DNA from: a virus
Length of the DNA: 24,018 bases
Virus record (IMG/VR): IMGVR_UViG_3300027736_000249
Coordinates: 1 to 24,018 of that record
Reading direction: 5' to 3' (one strand)
In this document: piece after piece, positions 691-15,379 of the stretch
How the letters are laid out: the number at the start of each line of letters is the position of its first letter
How positions within the stretch are numbered: position 1 is the stretch's first letter
The notes under the pieces: model-generated
What the model was told of the DNA's origin: nothing
Database searches by the model: none
What the model saw: only the letters and a program-made list of their open reading frames with translations
Program-made: the position numbers and the translations under genes

Positions 691-2898
691 ATGGACTATA
701 CCGGCATAAACAAAGCCGCAAAAGTAGCTGCCATAGGCGGTAACCCCGCCTCAGATGAGATTCGCAAAGACAATACGGATGTCTTAGCGACGATGCGTAC
801 CCGCCTGCAAATGGCGATCTCTGCATTGTCCGAAAGCCGTGAAGACGAGTTAGATGACTTAAAATTCTACGCGGGATCACCCGACAATCATTGGCAATGG
901 CCTGCTGACGTATTAGCAACCCGTGGCTCAGTGCAAGGGCAAACGATCAACGCGCGTCCGACGTTAACTATTAATAAGTTGCCGCAACATGTCCGACAAG
1001 TTACGAACGACCAAAGACAGAACCGTCCGAGCGGCAAAGTTATTCCTGCCGACGACAACGCAGACGTTGAAGTCGCCGAAATATTCAATGGAATGGTCAG
1101 GCACATCGAGTACATCTCGGATGCTGATGTGGCCTATGACACTGCCTGCGAAAACCAAGTAAGTTACGGCGAAGGGTACATCCGTGTCATTACGGAATAC
1201 TGCGACGACGACTCGTTCGATCAAGACATCAAGATCATGCGGGTTCGCAACTCGTTCTCGGTGTACATGGATCCGACAATCCAAGACCCGTGCGGCGCTG
1301 ATGCTAAGTGGTGTTTCATTACCGAGGACTTGCAGCGCGACGAATATGAGCGCATGTTCCCTGACGCATCACCGATCTCTAGCATTGAGTCTGCTGGCGT
1401 AGGCGACCAATCGCTAAATGTATGGATTAATGAAGATACCGTTCGTATTGCCGAGTATTACTACGTCGAGTATGACAAGGCAACACTGCATCTGTACCCA
1501 GGCAACATCACTGCGTTTGCTGGATCGCCAGAAGCTAAGCAACTAGCAGTTATGGGTGTTAAACCTGTGCGTAGCCGCGAGGTGGATGCTAAGCGTGTGC
1601 GCTGGTGCAAGACAAACGGCTATGAAATGTTAGAAGAGCGCGACTGGATAGGCAAGTGGATACCTGTCGTGCGCGTGATTGGTAACGAGTTTGAGGTTGA
1701 CGGACGTATTTACATCTCTGGATTGGTCAGGAACGCCAAAGATGCACAGCGTATGTACAACTATTGGGTGTCGCAAGAGGCAGAGATGCTTGCTTTGGCA
1801 CCAAAAGCGCCATTTATTGGTTATGGCGGTCAGTTTGAGGGGTACGAAACCCAATGGAAGACCGCAAATACGCAAAATTGGCCGTATTTAGAGGTAAATC
1901 CTGACGTAACTGACGGAAATGGAGCTATTTTACCGCTTCCACAGCGTGCAGCGCCGCCATTACCGCAAACTGGCTTGATTCAAGCCAAAATGGGCGCATC
2001 AGACGACATTAAAGCGACCACTGGCCAGTACGATACTAGTTTAGGAGCGACATCAAATGAGCGATCTGGCAAAGCAATTATGGCGCGTGAGCGTCAGTCT
2101 GACACTGGCACTTATCATTACGTGGATAATCTCGCGCGTGCTATTAGACATGTCACACGCCAAATTGTGGATATGATTCCAAAGATTTACGACACACAAC
2201 GTGTAGCTCGTATTATTGGTGTAGATGGTGACACCGACATGGTTAAGATTGACCCGACTCAACAAGAGCCGGTCAAAAAAATCGTTGACCAGCAAGGCAT
2301 TGAGATTGATAAGATATACAACCCAAGCGTTGGTAAGTACGACGTTGTGGTAACTACCGGCCCAAGCTACATGACCAAGCGTCAAGAGGCATTGGATGCT
2401 ATGGGTATGATTCTGCAAAGCAATCCGCAGCTTTGGCAAGTGGCTGGCGACCTGTTTATCAAGAACATGGATTGGCCAGGCGCTCAAGAGATGGCTCAAC
2501 GCTTTGCGCGAGTCATTGATCCTAAAGTGTTGGGTGATGGATCAGATGACAGTCCTGAATTGCAGATGGCTAAGCAGCAAATTCAAGCGATGGGTCAAGA
2601 GATGGAGCAGATGCACCAAATGATTACCAATGTGGGTAAGTCAATTGAAGTGCAGGACATGCAACGTAAGGACTTTGAGGCGCAAATTAAACAATTTGAC
2701 GCTGAAACTAAGCGTATTTCGGCGGTTCAAGCGGGCATGACTGAACAACAGATTCAAGATATTGCGATGGGCGTGGTTGCAGCAGCAATGGAATCCAACA
2801 AAGAAATGATGGAAATGCCAGGCCGCCAACAAGAAATGATGCAGCCAGAAATGATGCCAGAACAAGGAATGATGCCACCTGAAGGGATGCAACAATGA
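691..2898 (+). CDS. Portal protein, P22 gp1-like
   Basis: This 735-residue protein matches the P22-type portal family in length (P22 gp1 is 725 aa) and in sequence. Residues about 58-72 (KFYAGSPDNHWQWPADV) and 89-114 (RPTLTINKLPQHVRQVTNDQ, then RQNRPS) are hallmarks of the family, followed by VSYGEGYIRV and the VYMDPTIQDPCGADAKWCF stretch. The dodecameric portal forms the unique capsid vertex, where it docks the terminase, nucleates assembly with scaffold and later carries the tail. Residues about 640-690 look coiled-coil, matching the barrel end, and the last 30 residues are Met/Gln/Pro-rich. The start ATG follows the previous stop directly. The final ATGA overlaps the next gene by four bases. 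Confidence 0.95.
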   Translation: MDYTGINKAAKVAAIGGNPASDEIRKDNTDVLATMRTRLQMAISALSESREDELDDLKFYAGSPDNHWQWPADVLATRGSVQGQTINARPTLTINKLPQHVRQVTNDQRQNRPSGKVIPADDNADVEVAEIFNGMVRHIEYISDADVAYDTACENQVSYGEGYIRVITEYCDDDSFDQDIKIMRVRNSFSVYMDPTIQDPCGADAKWCFITEDLQRDEYERMFPDASPISSIESAGVGDQSLNVWINEDTVRIAEYYYVEYDKATLHLYPGNITAFAGSPEAKQLAVMGVKPVRSREVDAKRVRWCKTNGYEMLEERDWIGKWIPVVRVIGNEFEVDGRIYISGLVRNAKDAQRMYNYWVSQEAEMLALAPKAPFIGYGGQFEGYETQWKTANTQNWPYLEVNPDVTDGNGAILPLPQRAAPPLPQTGLIQAKMGASDDIKATTGQYDTSLGATSNERSGKAIMARERQSDTGTYHYVDNLARAIRHVTRQIVDMIPKIYDTQRVARIIGVDGDTDMVKIDPTQQEPVKKIVDQQGIEIDKIYNPSVGKYDVVVTTGPSYMTKRQEALDAMGMILQSNPQLWQVAGDLFIKNMDWPGAQEMAQRFARVIDPKVLGDGSDDSPELQMAKQQIQAMGQEMEQMHQMITNVGKSIEVQDMQRKDFEAQIKQFDAETKRISAVQAGMTEQQIQDIAMGVVAAAMESNKEMMEMPGRQQEMMQPEMMPEQGMMPPEGMQQ

Positions 2899-4317: not shown

Positions 4318-4815
4318 ATGGCCGTTTTTCTCTCCCCTGTAGGCGGCGTTGCGGCTCAGTTTTTTGACAACAGCGGCGTAATTTTAACCGGCGGTAAGCT
4401 ATATACTTACGCGGCGGGAACTACCACGTCCCAAGCTACATATACTTCTTCTAGCGGCGCGACGGCGCACACTAATCCGATTATTTTAGATTCCGCAGGA
4501 AGAGTGCCTGGCGGCGAAATTTGGTTAACTGCTTTAGCATATAAATTTTTAATTAAAACTAGCACTGACGTGCTTATTGCAACGTATGACAATATATCTG
4601 GAGTAGGCGCAACAACCTATCAGATTGACAATTTTACTGGTACAGGATCACAAACTGTATTTACGTTAAGCAGCACTTCAGCGGGCGAAAATTCTACTTT
4701 TGTGTATATCAATGGCGTATACCAGCAAAAAAATACCTATTCTTTATCAGGCACAACTTTAACCTTTTCTGCCGCTCCGCCATTTACGGCTACCATTGAA
4801 GTTGCATATAACTAA
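4318..4815 (+). CDS. Tailspike head-binding adaptor protein
   Basis: This 165-residue protein has two visible parts. Residues about 1-95 (AQFFDNSGVILTGGKLYTY, then SSGATAHTNPIILDSAGRVP and GEIWL) follow the pattern of phage tailspike head-binding domains, which dock trimers onto the tail hub. Residues about 98-165 (FTGTGSQTVFTL, FVYINGVYQQKNTYSLSG, LTFSAAPP) form a repeat module common in fibers, used as a spacer or interaction site. The chain stops after this module with no receptor-binding or catalytic part. The next gene supplies the missing spike body and lacks a comparable N-terminal domain. I infer that this protein connects the spike to the particle. An AAGGA Shine-Dalgarno lies at the usual distance from ATG 4318. 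Confidence 0.72.
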   Translation: MAVFLSPVGGVAAQFFDNSGVILTGGKLYTYAAGTTTSQATYTSSSGATAHTNPIILDSAGRVPGGEIWLTALAYKFLIKTSTDVLIATYDNISGVGATTYQIDNFTGTGSQTVFTLSSTSAGENSTFVYINGVYQQKNTYSLSGTTLTFSAAPPFTATIEVAYN

Positions 4816-4846: not shown

Positions 4847-7156
4847 ATGGCGTTAACAAAAGTTTCGTATTCTATGATTTCTGGCACTCCGCTTAGCCCT
4901 TTGGATTATGGCGCGGTGGGTAACGGAACAACAAATGACACAACAGCTATAACCGCTGTTATTGCGGCAGCTCAAACAAATAAACAGTGGATTGATGGCG
5001 GCCGCAAAACTTATTTAGTAACTGCTGTTCCTACAGATTTATATTATTTTAAAAATGCAGTGTTTAAAATTGGGTATGTTCTTTACCCAACAAACGATTA
5101 TTTAAACCAAAACACTGCAAAAGTTACCAACGCAAAAGCATACACCGCATGGCCGCAAGATAAGTGCTATGTCATAAACAATGAAATTCGGATGTGGGCT
5201 AACTATGGGGACAGCCATGTAGACCCAGATAAAAGGGCGGTTGTATTTAACTCAGACGATAGCGGTATTTCATACCAAGAAGGCGAGTTTCTTGACGAAA
5301 CAGCTAATGGCTTAACATCTTGGTCGGCAGGTACTGACGGCACGTATGAGTATGTTTTTGCAAGTACATCCGCAGTTTCAGATTCATTAAATGGCGCAAT
5401 CAATGCGGCTGTTACAACCATTACGCTTAATGATGCGTATGCTTTCCAAACTTCTGGAATTGTAACAATTGATTCTGAGCAGATTTTTTATACCGGAAAA
5501 ACCGCAACCACCTTAACTGGTTGCACCCGAGGTTACAACTCAACAACTGCCGCGTCTCATTTAACTGCCGCAACAGTATCTGCTGGCATTTTGTCTTATA
5601 TGAATAAGCGTACTGTGCCTGTTAGCCCAGGCGGAAATACTTACGCTGCGTTTACAAGAACTTTATTAAGTTTACCTTTACCTAGTTTTACAGCAAGCCC
5701 TGCGATTTATCAACATTCTTTTGCGTCTAACGGGGGAACAATTGTTACTGGCGCATCAAATGGAGATGGCGCATGGCTTTTAAAGTCCACAGATCAAGGC
5801 GCAACTTGGACTGCGTATACTTTACAAGCATCAACTAATGCAGAAGAGCCAACCGTAAAATGGGATTCTTCTACAAGCAAATGGTATGGATTTATTCGGG
5901 CGGGTGATGCTGGTGGTTTAATTCAGTTTTTTGTTGCTTCATCTGATTTATCCACAATTAATCGCTATGCGATCCCATCAGGGTATTTCAATGCAAACGC
6001 AATGATTGATAGTCCTGTGCCGTTGGTTATTGTTGATGGGGTAATCCATGCGTTTTGTTCATACAGAACCGGAACGAATGAAGGTAATGCGTCGGATAAA
6101 AATGTTTCTGCGTTTTACATTCGTGCAGTAATTGCGGATGTGGTTGCAAATGGAAACAACATTTGGACAACATCCACAACGCAAACATATTACATTGGAA
6201 ATTTACTCCACCTTGACACAAGTTCATCTGGCTGCGGTGTTGGATCGGTTGTAAGTTACGAAAACAAGATATTTTTGTTTTATGGAAGTGAAGAATTAAT
6301 TGGTACTTTCCCCGCAACATTAGCAACCGGAACACCAATAAATCGTTTTGTAAACGTTTATCAAACTGTGTTTCCTACAATAGATAAAGCTGGGTTTATT
6401 GACTACCGTACTAAGTTGCCAGAAGATCGGTCTGCAAACAATCCTAATATGCGGTTGCCAGGCGGTATTGGATGGAAAGCAAAAGAAGGTTCGTGGGTTT
6501 GGTCACAAAGTGGGCAGCTTTCTGCTTCTTATCCAAACGCTAAAGCAAGTTCTTTTGGTGATTATATTTTTGACTTAGCAACAACTGCTGGTGGCGTTTC
6601 AATATCTACTACAAGCACTAGCTCAACGGGGTATTCTGTATTCAATACTCTTGGGACAGACCCAACAGGGTGGTTTACAGATTCAACAGGAAACATTCGG
6701 TTTCAAGTTAATGGAGTTTCTAGGGTTAGATGGAGCGAAACAGATTTAGCTTGGAGGCCAGACACAATAGACAATGGTATTTCTTTGGGGACAGCAGCCC
6801 GCAGATGGTCAGTTGTTTATGCGGGTACTGGAACAATTAATACTTCTGATTTAAAGACAAAACAAGACATTGAGCCGCTTAATGAAGCTGAAAAACGCGT
6901 GGCTATTGCCATTAGAGGGTTAGTTAAAAAATTCAGGTTTAAAGACGCAGTAGCCCAAAAAGGTGATGCTGCTCGTATTCATGTTGGCGTAATTGCTCAA
7001 GAAGTAGCGCAAGCGTTTGAAGATGAAGGTCTTGACGCCCATAAATACGGAATTTTGTGCTATGACGAATGGGAAGCAGACGAAAACCAACCTGCTGGAA
7101 ATCGTTATGGTGTTAGATATGAAGAATTATTGGCATTTATAGTTGCATCAATGTAA
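4847..7156 (+). CDS. Tailspike with endosialidase-like propeller and S74 chaperone
   Basis: This 769-residue tailspike opens with SPLDYGAVGNGTTNDT (residues 17-32), the cap seen at the start of spike enzymes. AWPQDK at 101-106, the Asp-box STDQGATW at 314-321 and GCGVGSVVSYENKIFLFYG at 462-480 resemble, in the same order, blocks of the K1 phage endosialidases, whose beta-propeller cleaves polysialic acid. Residues about 178-245 form a distinct module, where endosialidases carry their inserted beta-barrel. The last about 100 residues are an S74 intramolecular chaperone. Ser667 in NTSDLKTK, with Lys672 five residues later, predicts self-cleavage before Ser667, and ARIHVGVIAQEVAQAF is the conserved core. 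I could not place the catalytic Glu and Arg residues with certainty, so substrate is unknown. It starts with an AGAGGA Shine-Dalgarno. Confidence 0.82.
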   Translation: MALTKVSYSMISGTPLSPLDYGAVGNGTTNDTTAITAVIAAAQTNKQWIDGGRKTYLVTAVPTDLYYFKNAVFKIGYVLYPTNDYLNQNTAKVTNAKAYTAWPQDKCYVINNEIRMWANYGDSHVDPDKRAVVFNSDDSGISYQEGEFLDETANGLTSWSAGTDGTYEYVFASTSAVSDSLNGAINAAVTTITLNDAYAFQTSGIVTIDSEQIFYTGKTATTLTGCTRGYNSTTAASHLTAATVSAGILSYMNKRTVPVSPGGNTYAAFTRTLLSLPLPSFTASPAIYQHSFASNGGTIVTGASNGDGAWLLKSTDQGATWTAYTLQASTNAEEPTVKWDSSTSKWYGFIRAGDAGGLIQFFVASSDLSTINRYAIPSGYFNANAMIDSPVPLVIVDGVIHAFCSYRTGTNEGNASDKNVSAFYIRAVIADVVANGNNIWTTSTTQTYYIGNLLHLDTSSSGCGVGSVVSYENKIFLFYGSEELIGTFPATLATGTPINRFVNVYQTVFPTIDKAGFIDYRTKLPEDRSANNPNMRLPGGIGWKAKEGSWVWSQSGQLSASYPNAKASSFGDYIFDLATTAGGVSISTTSTSSTGYSVFNTLGTDPTGWFTDSTGNIRFQVNGVSRVRWSETDLAWRPDTIDNGISLGTAARRWSVVYAGTGTINTSDLKTKQDIEPLNEAEKRVAIAIRGLVKKFRFKDAVAQKGDAARIHVGVIAQEVAQAFEDEGLDAHKYGILCYDEWEADENQPAGNRYGVRYEELLAFIVASM

Positions 7157-7170
7157 AATTTAAGCATAAT
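7143..7170 (+). promoter_or_regulatory. Weak sigma70-like promoter candidate before scaffold
   Basis: CATAAT at 7165-7170 matches five of six bases of the -10 consensus. It has TTGCAT at 7143-7148 as a poor -35, 16 bases upstream. It lies at the end of the tailspike gene and would start transcription near the structured scaffold leader. This is one of the few places in the plus-strand cluster with any space between genes. The -35 match is only three of six, so this is a suggestion only. Confidence 0.25.
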
Positions 7171-7186
7171 GTTAATAAACCCGTAT

Positions 7187-7222
7187 CGGCGAGGTTCACC
7201 GAGGATTCTTTAGGAATCGATA
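7187..7222 (+). promoter_or_regulatory. Tandem hairpin leader of the scaffold gene
   Basis: Two short inverted repeats lie back to back in the 66-base gap before the scaffold ATG. The first, at 7187-7201, is CGGCGAGGTTCACCG, with pairs CGG/CCG and GA/TC around one C-A mismatch and a three-base loop. The second, at 7204-7218, is GATTC, loop TTTAG, GAATC. The Shine-Dalgarno AGGA (7212-7215) falls in the loop and the start of the 3' arm of the second hairpin, seven bases from the ATG. Folding of this hairpin could therefore tune ribosome access. I recall similar gaggttcaccgaggattct sequence before capsid genes of other phages, which suggests conservation, but I cannot check this. Confidence 0.5.
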
Positions 7223-8008
7223 ATGTCTGAAGAGATTCAAAACGAAGTAGCGGATTCGCCCGCGCCAGAACAGGTACCAACGGCAGAACCTGTAGCTGAA
7301 GAAACACAAGCGCCGGAGAATGAACAGCCGACCGAGCAGCAGTCTAAGACCTTCACACAAGAAGAATTAGATGCAATCGTAGGCAAAAGGCTTGCAAGAG
7401 AGCAGCGTAAGTGGGAACGAGAGCAGTCTCGTAGGGTGCAAGAAGCGCCTGCGGGAACCGCCGAACTTCCTGCGCCAGAACAGTTTGAATCCGTCGATGC
7501 GTATGCTGATGCGTTAGCAGTACGTAAAGCGGAAGAACTACTGGTTAAGCGTGAAGCTGATCGGCAAAAAATGGATATGCTAGAAGCGTATCAGGATCGT
7601 GAAGAAGAAGCTCGAGGTAAGTATGAGGACTTTGAACAAGTCGCATATAACCCTAAGCTACCAATTACATCCGTGATGGCGGAAACTATCCAAGCGTCGG
7701 ATATAGGGCCAGATTTAGCATACTATTTGGGTACTAATCCACGTGAAGCTGACAGAATTTCACGTTTAACGCCGTTTTTACAAGCTAAAGAAATTGGTAA
7801 ATTAGAAGCAAAAATTTCTTCTGCGCCAGTTTTAAAGAAAACGACAAGCGCCCCACCGCCTATAGCGCCAATTTCTGGCCGCGGCACTGGATCGCCGTCT
7901 CATGACACAACCGACCCACGCTCAATAAAAAGTATGAGCACGTCGGAATGGATTGAGGCAGAGCGCCAGCGTCAAATTAGGAAATGGGAAGCTCAACGTA
8001 ACCGCTAA
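7223..8008 (+). CDS. Scaffolding protein, P22 gp8-like
   Basis: This 261-residue protein is highly charged, has an acidic disordered N-terminus (residues 1-40, Glu/Pro/Gln rich) and long predicted helices at about 43-75 (FTQEELDAIVGKRLAREQRK) and 95-135. The EELDAIVGKRLARE motif is typical of phage scaffold proteins. The basic C-terminus (SEWIEAERQRQIRKWEAQRNR in part) fits the helix-turn-helix by which P22 gp8 contacts coat. Scaffold drives coat protein into the correct procapsid shell and leaves before or during packaging. The gene lies directly upstream of coat, as in P22. Translation begins after the structured leader, which may regulate its dose. P22 scaffold is 303 aa, so this version is somewhat short. 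Confidence 0.85.
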   Translation: MSEEIQNEVADSPAPEQVPTAEPVAEETQAPENEQPTEQQSKTFTQEELDAIVGKRLAREQRKWEREQSRRVQEAPAGTAELPAPEQFESVDAYADALAVRKAEELLVKREADRQKMDMLEAYQDREEEARGKYEDFEQVAYNPKLPITSVMAETIQASDIGPDLAYYLGTNPREADRISRLTPFLQAKEIGKLEAKISSAPVLKKTTSAPPPIAPISGRGTGSPSHDTTDPRSIKSMSTSEWIEAERQRQIRKWEAQRNR

Positions 8009-8025
8009 CTTTTTTAAGGAATATC

Positions 8026-9228
8026 ATGGCAAACTCGATTCTAACCATCGACATGATTACCCGTAAAGCTCTCGAAATCCTCGAGAACAATCTGGTAATC
8101 TCCCGTAACGTAAACCGTCAATACGACGACTCTTTCGCTGTTGAAGGCGCTAAAATTGGTTCCACACTGCGTATCCGTTTACCGGATCGTGCTTTGGTAA
8201 CTGACGGTGCTGCCCTGCAAACTCAGGACGACAACGAGCAGTACACAACTCTGACTGTAGCTTCGCAAAAGCACATCGGCATTAATTTCACTTCTGCTGA
8301 ATTGACTATGCAGTTGGATGATTTTGCTGAGCGTGTTTTGAAACCACGTATTTCGCAATTGGCTTCGTCTATCGATGCTGACGTTGCAAATGCGTACAAA
8401 AACATCTATGCATCTGTTGGCACACCAGGCACTACACCTTCGACTTCATTGGTTCTGTTGCAAGCGCAACAAAAACTGAACGAAGCTGCTGCTGTAATGT
8501 CACCACGCTATGCAACTGTTAACCCAGCCGCTAACGCTGGTTTGGTTGAAGGCATGAAAGGTTTGTTTAACCCAACAGACACTATCAGCAAGCAGTTTAA
8601 GAACGGCATGATGGGCACAGGCGTATTGGGCTTTGAAGAAGTCAACATGTCTCAGTCAATCAAGCAACATACTACTGGTGCTTGGGGTACTTCTATTACT
8701 GTTACTTCAACAGTTACTACTGAAGGCCAATCCACACTGCCAATTAGCTTTACTGGTTCCAGCAAGACATGGAACGTTGGCGACGTGTTTACTATCGCTG
8801 CTGTAAATTCGGTTAACCCACAAACCCGTGAATCAACTGGTTCGTTGCAGCAATTCGTTGTGACTGCTGTTGCTACTGGCTCTTCCACTGCAACTTTGTC
8901 AATTAGCCCAGCTCTGTACTCGGCTGGTCAAGCTTTGGCTACTGTTGACGTGTTGCCACAATCCGGCGCTGTAGTAACAATGTTGGGTTCGGCTTCAACT
9001 CAGTACGCTCAAAACTTGGTTTACCACAAAGATGCAATCACGCTTGCTACTGCTGACTTGCTGATGCCACAAGGCGTTGACATGGCTTCGCGCCAAGTTC
9101 ACAACGGCATTTCGATGCGTATTGTTCGTCAATACGATATCAACAATGACCGCTTGCCTTGCCGTATTGACGTTCTATACGGCTTTAGCACAATTCGTCC
9201 GCAAATGGCTTGCCGTATCTGGGGCTAA
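8026..9228 (+). CDS. Major coat protein, P22 gp5-like
   Basis: This 400-residue protein (P22 gp5 is 430) has the HK97-type coat fold of the P22 family. The N-terminal helix MITRKALEILENNLVISRNV, the VEGAKIGSTLRIRLPDR stretch and the C-terminal block YHKDAITLATADL, then MRIVRQYDINNDRLPCRIDV and VLYG are diagnostic. Residues about 215-320, rich in Thr, Ser and Val, correspond to the inserted I-domain that stabilises the subunit. It forms the icosahedral shell. The gene has a strong AAGGA Shine-Dalgarno and uses many C-ending codons (AAC, GAC, TAC, CTG) near its start, unlike neighbours, as expected for the most abundant protein. A stable hairpin follows the stop. Confidence 0.94.
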   Translation: MANSILTIDMITRKALEILENNLVISRNVNRQYDDSFAVEGAKIGSTLRIRLPDRALVTDGAALQTQDDNEQYTTLTVASQKHIGINFTSAELTMQLDDFAERVLKPRISQLASSIDADVANAYKNIYASVGTPGTTPSTSLVLLQAQQKLNEAAAVMSPRYATVNPAANAGLVEGMKGLFNPTDTISKQFKNGMMGTGVLGFEEVNMSQSIKQHTTGAWGTSITVTSTVTTEGQSTLPISFTGSSKTWNVGDVFTIAAVNSVNPQTRESTGSLQQFVVTAVATGSSTATLSISPALYSAGQALATVDVLPQSGAVVTMLGSASTQYAQNLVYHKDAITLATADLLMPQGVDMASRQVHNGISMRIVRQYDINNDRLPCRIDVLYGFSTIRPQMACRIWG

Positions 9229-12406: not shown

Positions 12407-15379
12407 ATGGCGACTAGCCCAAACTCTACCCAAATTACGCCTCCACGGGTGCCGATTATTGACGACCGTACTGGTGCTGTGTCACGTGAATGGTATCGTT
12501 GGTTTTATAGCTTGTACAACATTGTTGGCGCGGGTGCTGGCATTATTCCTGTAAATAGTGGTGGCACAGGGTTAAGCGCTATCCCCACCAACGGCCAACT
12601 GTTAATTGGTAACGGTACGGGGTATGCATTAAACACACTTGGGACGGGTTCCGGCATTTCGGTAACTAATGGCGCGGGTACAATCTCTATTGCTAATACA
12701 GGCGTTTTATCTTTTGCAGGCGGCACTACCGGCTTAACCCCCGCAGTAGCTACTACAGGGGTGATAACCCTTGCAGGCATTTTAAATGTTGTGAATGGCG
12801 GTACAGGACTAAGTACGGCTCCCACCAACGGCCAACTGTTAATTGGTAACGGTACGGGGTATGCATTAAACACACTTGGGACGGGTTCCGGCATTTCGGT
12901 AACTAACGGTGCGGGCACGATTTCAATAGCCAATACAGGCGTTTTATCTTTTGCAGGCGGCACAACAGGTCTAACGCCAGCAACAGCTACTACCGGCGCG
13001 ATAACGCTTGCAGGCACATTAGCTGTTGCTAACGGCGGCACAAACGGTTCCGCAACGCCTACAGCCTATGGTATTGCGTATGGCACGGGTACAGCCTATG
13101 CGTTTACTGCTGCTGGCACGACAAAACAAGCATTACTTGCCAATACTGGCTCTACGCCCGCCTGGTCAACATTAACCAGTGGTACATCTATTCTCTATGG
13201 CGATGGTTCAGGCGGTTTTAGCAACGTTACAATTGGATCAGGCGTTAGTTTTGTTGCAGGCACGTTGTCGGCCACGGGATCAGGCGGTACAGTTACAAGC
13301 GTTAGTTTTACTGGCGGCATCATTACTGTGGCTACGCCAACCACCACCCCTGCTTTTACAGTGGCGGGGACTAGCGGAGGTATACCTTATTTTTCTAGCG
13401 CAAGCACTTGGTCATCATCATCGGCTTTGGCTGCTAATGCACTGGTGGTTGGTGGTGGTGCTGGTGTAGCCCCATCAACTATTACAACGGGAACTGGTGT
13501 TGTTACTGCCTTGGGCGTAAATACTGGCTCTGCTGGCGCTTTTGTAGTCAATGGCGGGGCTTTAGGAACACCGTCTAGCGGTACTGTGACTAACCTTACT
13601 GGCACTGCGTCAATTAACATTAATGGCACTGTTGGCGCTACTACTGCAAATACTGGGGCATTTACTTCATTAACTGATTCGGGCAACCTAACATTTACAG
13701 GCACAGGAAATCGCATTACTGGTGATTTCACTACTTTGACACTTGTTAATCGAGTAGCGTTTCAATCCAGTACGGCTAATGGAACGACCGCTATTCTTGC
13801 ATTGCCTAATGGAACGAATACTGATTCAAGTTTCCAAACATTTAATAATTCAGACCCAACAAATTCTAGTAGAACAATTATTTCGATAAGTTCAACAGAG
13901 TCATCTTTTCAAGCTGCAAGAACAGGAACAGGCACTTATTTGCCTATGACTTTTTACACAAATGGACTTGGTCGTTTTGTTATTGGAACTTCTGGTCAAT
14001 TTGGTATTGGGCCATTAGGGTCTGTAACTTACGGAACATCAGGACAGTTATTTACTTCTGGTGGGGCAAGTGCTGCTCCTACGTGGACTTCTACTACAGG
14101 TAGCGGCAATGTGGTGTTAGATACTTCGCCTAGCTTAGTAACTCCGTTGTTAGGTACGCCAACATCAGGAACATTATCTAACTGTACGGTTGACGGTACT
14201 GATTCAGTTGGCTTTAGAAATGTTCCGATGAACAATTCGCCATCTGGTCAATCGGCTAACTACACTACTGTTTTAGCTGATTCTGGTAAATTTATATTTC
14301 ATCCGTCAAGCGATGCTAACGCTAGAACATTTACCATACCGTCAAATGCTTCAGTTGCTTACCCAATTGGCACGCAGCTAACCTTTATCAATATGTCAGC
14401 GCAAAGTTTAACTATTGCAATTACAACTGACACGTTATATGCGGCAGGAAGTGGGTCAACCGCGCCTAAAATATTAAATCAATATGGAGTGGCAACAGCC
14501 ACTAAAATGACTGCAACTACGTGGGTTATTTCTGGCGCAGGATTAAATATTATTCCGTCAAGCGTTACTTATCTTGTTGTAGCTGGCGGCGGCGGCAGTG
14601 GTACGGGCGCGTCTGCTCAAGCAGGCGCTGGTGGCGCGGGGGGTTTTTTAACTGGGTCTTTATCGGTAGCCGGAGCTACTAGCTATACAGTAACAGTTGG
14701 CGGCGGCGGCGCGGAAAATACAAACGGAACAAACTCCGTTTTTTCTTCTATAACTTCTACTGGCGGCGGTAAAGGCGGTTCTAACACTAATACTTTAACC
14801 AACGGCTCCACAGGTGGTTCTGGCGGCGGCGGGTCTGGCTCAGGATTTACCGGCCGTGCGGGCGGTGCAGGTACTGCGGGGCAAGGCAACGCGGGTGGAT
14901 TGGGTATACTTTTTGGTGGCTCGACAGGCGGCGGTTGCGGCGGCGGCGGCGGCGCTGGTGCGGTTGGAGCTGATGGTGTGGGCAACGTCGGCGGTAATGG
15001 TGGTGTTGGCTTAGCAAATCCAATAGTAGGTTCTACTATAGGGCAAAACGTAGCGGGTACATATTATTTGGCTGGCGGTGGTGGTGGTACAAATAGACTT
15101 AGCTCGGGTGCGGCTGTAGGAACTGGAGGCAATGGAGGCGGCGGAGCGGGTCAACCTTCTACTGGTGGAACAAATGGAACTGCAAATACTGGCGGCGGCG
15201 CTGGCGGTGGTCAAGCTGCGGGCGGCGGTATTGGTGGATCAGGCGTGGTAATTTTGGCTTACCCAGCAACTCTTTCAGATTTAACTTCTATAGGCGTTGG
15301 GCTGACATATACAAAAACTACGCTTAGCGGTAATACGGTGTACACGTTTACGGCAGGCACCGGACTTATTTCATGGTGA
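12407..15379 (+). CDS. Large modular tail fiber with glycine-rich C-terminus
   Basis: The 990-residue product is built from modules. Residues 1-45 (PRVPIIDDRTGAVSREWYRW) match an adaptor found at the N-terminus of fiber proteins encoded beside gp10. Residues about 52-209 contain two near-identical 79-residue repeats (GTGLS..PTNGQLLIGNGTG, then LNTLGTGSGISVTNGAGTI), with a third degenerate copy after them. Other fiber motifs follow (GTPSSGTVTNLTGTASININ). Residues about 605-722 form the domain NYTTVLADSGKFIFHPSS...ARTFTIP. Residues about 722-948 are glycine-rich, from YLVVAGGGGSGTG to GGIGGSGVVILAYP, a domain known from phage adhesins. It is probably a host-recognition fiber. No enzyme motif was seen. 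Confidence 0.82.
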   Translation: MATSPNSTQITPPRVPIIDDRTGAVSREWYRWFYSLYNIVGAGAGIIPVNSGGTGLSAIPTNGQLLIGNGTGYALNTLGTGSGISVTNGAGTISIANTGVLSFAGGTTGLTPAVATTGVITLAGILNVVNGGTGLSTAPTNGQLLIGNGTGYALNTLGTGSGISVTNGAGTISIANTGVLSFAGGTTGLTPATATTGAITLAGTLAVANGGTNGSATPTAYGIAYGTGTAYAFTAAGTTKQALLANTGSTPAWSTLTSGTSILYGDGSGGFSNVTIGSGVSFVAGTLSATGSGGTVTSVSFTGGIITVATPTTTPAFTVAGTSGGIPYFSSASTWSSSSALAANALVVGGGAGVAPSTITTGTGVVTALGVNTGSAGAFVVNGGALGTPSSGTVTNLTGTASININGTVGATTANTGAFTSLTDSGNLTFTGTGNRITGDFTTLTLVNRVAFQSSTANGTTAILALPNGTNTDSSFQTFNNSDPTNSSRTIISISSTESSFQAARTGTGTYLPMTFYTNGLGRFVIGTSGQFGIGPLGSVTYGTSGQLFTSGGASAAPTWTSTTGSGNVVLDTSPSLVTPLLGTPTSGTLSNCTVDGTDSVGFRNVPMNNSPSGQSANYTTVLADSGKFIFHPSSDANARTFTIPSNASVAYPIGTQLTFINMSAQSLTIAITTDTLYAAGSGSTAPKILNQYGVATATKMTATTWVISGAGLNIIPSSVTYLVVAGGGGSGTGASAQAGAGGAGGFLTGSLSVAGATSYTVTVGGGGAENTNGTNSVFSSITSTGGGKGGSNTNTLTNGSTGGSGGGGSGSGFTGRAGGAGTAGQGNAGGLGILFGGSTGGGCGGGGGAGAVGADGVGNVGGNGGVGLANPIVGSTIGQNVAGTYYLAGGGGGTNRLSSGAAVGTGGNGGGGAGQPSTGGTNGTANTGGGAGGGQAAGGGIGGSGVVILAYPATLSDLTSIGVGLTYTKTTLSGNTVYTFTAGTGLISW
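12560..13033 (+). repeat. Two 237-bp tandem repeat units in the fiber gene
   Basis: Unit 1 (12560-12796) and unit 2 (12797-13033) are offset by exactly 237 bases, 79 codons. The blocks 12584-12669 and 12821-12906 are identical over 86 bases, and 12695-12726 equals 12932-12963 over 32 bases. Differences between these blocks are mostly at third codon positions. A third, strongly diverged unit begins in register at 13034 (GGT-N-G reading). The long identical stretch points to recent duplication or gene conversion. Confidence 0.88.
14574..15252 (+). repeat. Glycine-codon low-complexity tract
   Basis: This part of the fiber gene is dominated by GGC, GGT and GGA codons, with several perfect GGC runs (for example near 14586-14596, 14700-14711 and 14938-14955). 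It encodes the glycine-rich adhesin domain. Such triplet runs are prone to slippage in multiples of three, giving in-frame length variation of the tip. Confidence 0.7.

Follow-up and report, generated by a model that had tools for sequence, protein, structure and literature searches.

The window, by which we mean the whole 24,018-base stretch of an IMG/VR virus record analysed here, contains at positions 4847..7156 an ORF for a 769-aa endosialidase-like protein. This protein is probably the tailspike with which a P22-like environmental phage depolymerises capsules. The assignment draws on Pfam, PHROG, hhalign and structure matches, and the ORF lies, as do the other features given below between positions 691 and 9228 of the window, on the plus strand. 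Three such chains would form the spike, a homotrimer by analogy with EndoNF of Escherichia phage K1F, and its N-terminus would dock on a separate adapter. Each subunit would have a sialidase-type propeller of six blades, of the endosialidase class, that cleaves a capsule polymer resembling polysialic acid (a nonulosonic acid) within its chain, using the Glu and Arg residues E334, R407 and probably R351, while a C-terminal S74 chaperone would fold the trimer and its stalk and then cut itself off before S667. The spike would be carried as an exchangeable module. It is by comparison that the family, the fold and the greater part of the active site are shown; endo-cleavage, substrate and host are what we infer.

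Phage backbone and position of the spike

The original prediction, that the spike belongs to a P22-like podovirus outside the group of K1 coliphages, agrees with the content of the window. P22-type portal (691..2898; PF16510, 2.4e-175 in Pfam), head-closure (Hc3, PHROG 578) and coat (major head protein, PHROG 283) genes are all present, and the nearest relatives of the portal protein (72% identity) come from uncultured phages of Dishui Lake and Manatee Spring, with no K1 phage among the closest portals. The portal gene is located upstream of the spike cassette, and the scaffold and major capsid genes (7223..9228; PHROG 283 at 9e-79) downstream of it. The products of the latter region share 58% and 75% identity with their counterparts in phage DSL-LC05. 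The spike gene and the gene of a separate 165-aa tailspike adapter (4318..4815) thus sit between portal and scaffold, with smaller genes among them. Elsewhere in the window, the region 12407-15379 codes for a fibre-like protein of 990 aa, in which segments near the N-terminus are repeated and the C-terminal domain is rich in glycine (PF21722, 4e-13).

Domain organisation of the tailspike

PHROG 1171 (tail spike) matches residues 16-745 of the protein at 2e-49. Near its N-terminus, the endosialidase N-terminal extension (PF12218, End_N_terminal) was found over the cut-off at aa 23-73 (4913..5065; 7.2e-9), and the End_beta_propel model of Pfam scored just under its own (23.9 bits vs 24). The propeller itself, delimited by hhalign, the AF2 model and PDB fold matches, extends over about aa 84-540 (5096..6466). 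It is followed at about aa 545-666 (6479..6844) by a presumed trimeric stalk, which was assigned from its position, is shorter than that of EndoNF and matches End_tail_spike of Pfam over its last 27 residues alone, under the cut-off (0.0013).

The S74 intramolecular chaperone occupies aa 667-769 (6845..7153; PF13884, 3.4e-10, with the match at aa 667-729). Both S667 and K672 are present, and the protein presumably cleaves itself before S667 by means of this dyad, on the model of S911/K916 of EndoNF, which we take to be the self-cleavage dyad of that enzyme. The closest relative of this chaperone is that of Synechococcus phage S-CBP4, to which it is 60% identical at the amino acid level and detectably similar even as DNA, a likeness pointing to module exchange. 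A search with the full spike gave 600 phage matches, most of which, like L005, had only the S74 end in common with it.

At about aa 177-250 (5375..5596), the propeller carries an inserted small domain of ∼70 residues, which resembles a segment of PHROG 4406, a virion structural protein family (1.3e-6 at aa 178-237). It was found in the proteins of the window and of contig L003 only, being absent from L004, L017 and L018. This domain is not the beta-barrel of EndoNF, which belongs to the following loop. In the alignments, no counterpart of the lectin-like beta-barrel polysialic acid site of EndoNF was seen in any of the nine members of the subfamily described below.

Comparison of profile and fold with endosialidases

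An hhalign comparison of the nine-member subfamily with ten endosialidases, taken from coliphages and from related viral contigs, gave a probability of 99.8% and an E-value of 2.5e-30 over 380 columns. When the subfamily profile was run against the PDB, the best match was the phi92 endosialidase (2.4e-26), followed by EndoNF (4e-24), and both enzymes were also among the phmmer matches on solved structures. An AF2 model of aa 17-579 reached a pLDDT of 69.6 and a pTM of 0.72 but was uncertain in the inserted domain and in the stalk; since the 16 sequences on which it was built included the coliphage homologues, it is not independent of them and the comparison is partly circular. A model made with three close relatives only had a pLDDT of 38 and was discarded. 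The retained model matched EndoNF best in the PDB (1e-22), then the phi92 endosialidase (4e-20), and in BFVD its best matches were a coliphage endosialidase and the K1E spike. The TM-scores to endosialidases, normalised by query length, were 0.54-0.59 and the overall rmsd was large, so that the blade fold is supported and the arrangement of domains is not. Taken together, sequence profiles and the model make the family and fold of the spike solid, in line with the expected endosialidase-type propeller. By fold, sialidase-like propellers were also detected in the BFVD entries A0A482MG86 and A0A5Q2F3L1 (8e-16 and 6e-15; 13-14% identity), which are spikes of Serratia phage Parlo and Pectobacterium phage MA13, respectively.

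The next fold matches of the model were exosialidases (2e-11), and the spike has a canonical Asp-box, STDQGATW, at aa 314-321 (5786..5809), both of which would be expected if the protein were an exosialidase rather than an endosialidase. Such a function appears highly improbable, however, because the endosialidase fold matches better by eleven orders of magnitude and the protein possesses both the endosialidase N-terminal extension and the S74 chaperone.

The Asp-box deserves a comment of its own. The endosialidase assignment had been derived from the succession of AWPQDK (aa 101-106, nt 5147), STDQGATW, GCGVGSVV (aa 462-469, nt 6230) and S74, all of which are indeed present; the parallel with the K1 enzymes fails at the Asp-box. 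According to the alignment, STDQGATW occupies the region where the coliphage endosialidases have PRxxG, including R549, and it was rejected as a motif in common with them. EndoNF has two Asp-box-like motifs: SGDDGQTW, whose counterpart in the window spike is SDDSGISY (aa 136-143), and SRDIGQTW, whose counterpart is SSDLSTIN (aa 365-372).

Active-site residues

Deep mutational scanning of the K1F spike has identified H350, R549, E581, R596, R647, Q330, K585 and N699 as critical, and D331, H527 and S528 belong to the same active-site network (PMC12632334). The window spike is identical to EndoNF at 8 of these 11 positions in both alignments used for the count, against a background identity of 22-24% (P below 1e-3). 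The catalytic E581 and R647 correspond to E334 (5846..5848) and R407 (6065..6067), on which every alignment agrees. The other equivalents, all from alignment, are H124 for the active-site residue H350 (5216..5218; role in PMC12632334), Q104 D105 for Q330 D331 (5156..5161), H290 S291 for H527 S528 (5714..5719) and K338 for K585 (5858..5860), i.e. His350 and the Q330-D331-H527-S528-K585 network are identical at six of six positions.

The second catalytic arginine is less certain. R351 (5897..5899), the probable equivalent of R596, stands opposite it in two of the alignments and is 1-4 residues off in the others; it is invariant in all nine subfamily members, and its distance to the next Asp-box Asp is 16 residues, the same as between R596 and D612 of EndoNF. 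Of the anticipated catalytic Glu and two Arg, the Glu and one Arg are therefore firmly located, and R351 is the probable other Arg. Nine of the eleven functionally critical residues thus appear to be kept, eight firmly and R351 probably. R549 and N699 are not: in the alignment their places are taken by a Thr within the Asp-box and by Ser460, and both residues are lost throughout the subfamily.

Re-use of propeller folds is common, and the spike might accordingly bind a capsule without cutting it, or cut an unrelated polysaccharide with a re-purposed pocket. The two missing critical residues and the ambiguous alignment of R351 are compatible with this. On the other hand, the equivalents of Glu581, Arg647 and His350 and the Q-D-H-S-K network are kept on a background of ∼22% identity, more than one would expect of a pocket that is dead or has been re-purposed, and we regard this possibility as quite improbable. 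Judging from the conserved residues, catalysis by the spike is likely.

Because R549, N699 and the barrel site were missing when looked for, the spike was not filed as a strict member of the EndoNF family, and its substrate specificity may differ for the same reason. It represents a divergent variant, probably with the same mode of action as EndoNF. Besides these losses, the shorter and hardly recognisable stalk also counts against the reading as a capsule-cutting endosialidase.

Relatives and exchange of the catalytic module

Scans of IMG/VR yielded a small subfamily consisting, besides the window spike, of L003 (73% identity), L004 (49%), L017, L018, L023, L024, L025 and L028; a match in L019 was confined to 90 residues. 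In L004 and L018, the same propeller is found behind a T7-type virion-binding N-terminal domain. L017 (= L020) is a prophage of Ensifer sp. LCM 4579, and L028 has DNA in common with Sinorhizobium phages. The spike of the L028 prophage spans two overlapping frames (L028:5062-7290 and 7086-7562), perhaps because of a frameshift or a sequencing error. S74 was not detected in L004, L017 and L018. With the propeller alone, tblastn gave no match among 50,697 phage records, placing the clade far from anything among them; the Ensifer-type spike had no tblastn match among plasmids. Window-like motifs retrieved no genome in a first scan, and a scan with an alignment led by the Ensifer sequence found one genome. 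What is new here is a small, divergent endosialidase-like subfamily in environmental phages and rhizobial prophages.

In L003, a single 901-aa ORF (L003:3013-5718) combines the adapter (52% identity) and the spike (73%), which are separate in the window. An assembly error as the cause of the split was rejected, as a second contig of the same virus from another assembly (L002) shows the same split. The N-terminal docking stretch of the window spike (aa 1-48, 4847..4990) is 52% identical to the DSL-LC05 spike. DSL-LC05 also has a separate adapter (63% identity) and the same flanking genes, and its spike bears another catalytic domain. Given that DSL-LC05 keeps the adapter and the first 48 residues with a different catalytic domain, the comparison of the two sequences indicates that the catalytic domain is a swapped, exchangeable module. 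Docking of a short N-terminal peptide on an adapter is known for the K1E and K1-5 spikes, and modular spike exchange for CUS-3, K1F and K1E (PMC5380687). DSL-LC05 was set aside as a clue to the host, being itself metagenome-assembled with a host that is only predicted.

The Ensifer prophage and the probable substrate

Ensifer sp. LCM 4579 is a nitrogen-fixing, salt-tolerant soil isolate (PMC5383890). Its prophage spike, which is 41% identical to the window spike in the propeller, belongs to the same subfamily and keeps the catalytic Glu and Arg; it differs by the undetected S74, the lack of the inserted domain, the replacements Q330->E and H527->I, and a neighbouring polysialyltransferase gene. 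The capsule locus of this bacterium (L032, G001:C19:21000-40500) contains NeuC (350 bits vs a cut-off of 236), and NeuB (closest to N-acetylneuraminate synthase, score under the cut-off). It also encodes a CMP-sugar synthetase, a polysialyltransferase and a capsule-synthesis protein (PF05159), and has export genes of the KpsM/T/E type. A locus of this NeuA/NeuB/NeuC/polyST/Kps type suggests a polysialic-acid-like capsule in a nitrogen-fixing soil bacterium.

The prophage has an alpha-2,8-polysialyltransferase of its own (L017:7834-9123, minus strand, = L020:9858-11150; PF07388, 3e-36). This gene adjoins that of the spike on the opposite strand, has a lower GC content, and its product is 25% identical to the chromosomal enzyme. 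It had no match in the 50,697 phage records and, among viral contigs, was found only in the same prophage. Such a gene could be a capsule-converting one. Among 299 genomes of the family to which Ensifer sp. LCM 4579 belongs, polysialyltransferase was present in 4 and NeuC over the cut-off in 18; Ensifer sp. LCM 4579 was the only one with both, and also the only one with a full-length spike. Among the titles and abstracts listed in searches of the open-access literature, none described a polysialyltransferase in a prophage, and none described polysialic acid from rhizobia.

The original prediction also raised the possibility that the spike cuts a different nonulosonic-acid capsule (sialic, pseudaminic or legionaminic acid). 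As an alternative, then, an enzyme of the same class might act on a polymer of another nonulosonic acid (of the pseudaminic, legionaminic or Kdn type) or on a heteropolymer containing one. Aquatic hosts may carry varied nonulosonic acids. Moreover, the residues by which EndoNF binds or positions sialic acid, R549 and N699, have been lost throughout the subfamily together with the barrel, and the CMP-sugar synthetase of Ensifer scores best against the pseudaminate enzyme PseF, albeit under the cut-off. Against this stand the Ensifer NeuC over its curated cut-off, the NeuB nearest to N-acetylneuraminate synthase and the polysialyltransferase, whereas no Pse- or Leg-specific enzyme in the operon exceeded its cut-off; hence this alternative seems rather unlikely. 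With NeuC, NeuB, polysialyltransferase and Kps genes in the host and a polysialyltransferase in the prophage, the evidence, which comes from the host of one relative and was found after the fact, favours a polysialic-acid-like substrate of the subfamily over a pseudaminic or legionaminic one. For the window spike, for which the link to a host runs through that single relative, a nonulosonic-acid polymer is plausible as the class of substrate.

Relation to known endosialidases and implications

The window spike has in common with EndoNF the succession of N-terminal extension, six-bladed propeller and S74 chaperone, as well as the equivalents of E581, R647, H350, Q330, D331, H527, S528 and K585. 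It differs from it by an overall identity of about 22-26%, the missing beta-barrel sugar site, the replaced R549 and N699, another inserted domain, a shorter stalk and the lack of a virion-binding domain in the same chain. EndoNF and the K1E and 63D enzymes presumably make up family GH58 of CAZy. Endosialidase 92 of phi92 (gp143, PDB 4hiz) is the closest to the window spike by profile and among the best folds; phi92, however, is not P22-like, and its enzyme has the barrel, R549 and N699, unlike the window spike.

An endosialidase in a P22-like podovirus is not new, since CUS-3, a P22-like K1 phage, carries siaK1 (PMC5380687). In this Enterobacteria phage (Lederbergvirus, E. coli K1), as here, an endosialidase spike is mounted on a P22-like virion, but siaK1 has a P22-type fused N-terminal domain and lies elsewhere in the genome, whereas the window spike occupies the portal-scaffold position and has a separate adapter. 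The annotation of neuO beside siaK1 parallels the polysialyltransferase gene beside the spike of the Ensifer prophage.

A more far-reaching idea, which is speculative and for now also unlikely, is that the endo-acting depolymerases of nonulosonic acids include a second clade, represented by this subfamily, whose sugar site has been re-shaped by the absence of R549, N699 and the barrel and whose substrate is other than K1 polysialic acid. The polysialyltransferase that accompanies the spike in the Ensifer prophage may then alter the capsule of the host and so keep out competing phages. If true, module exchange would have spread the clade among environmental phages, both P22-like and T7-like, and prophages of rhizobia.

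To our knowledge, the endosialidases that have been characterised stem from phages infecting E. coli with a coat of polysialic acid. The match of the window spike in fold and residues, along with a related prophage in a soil bacterium bearing capsule genes, indicates that endosialidase-type enzymes probably reach well beyond E. coli phages. Enzymes of this kind could serve as tools with new linkage or sugar specificity. The occurrence in environmental phages of such a clade, divergent yet catalytically plausible, implies that capsules resembling polysialic acid exist on bacteria of soil and other environments, and Ensifer sp. LCM 4579, as a prophage host with matching capsule genes, offers a testable case.
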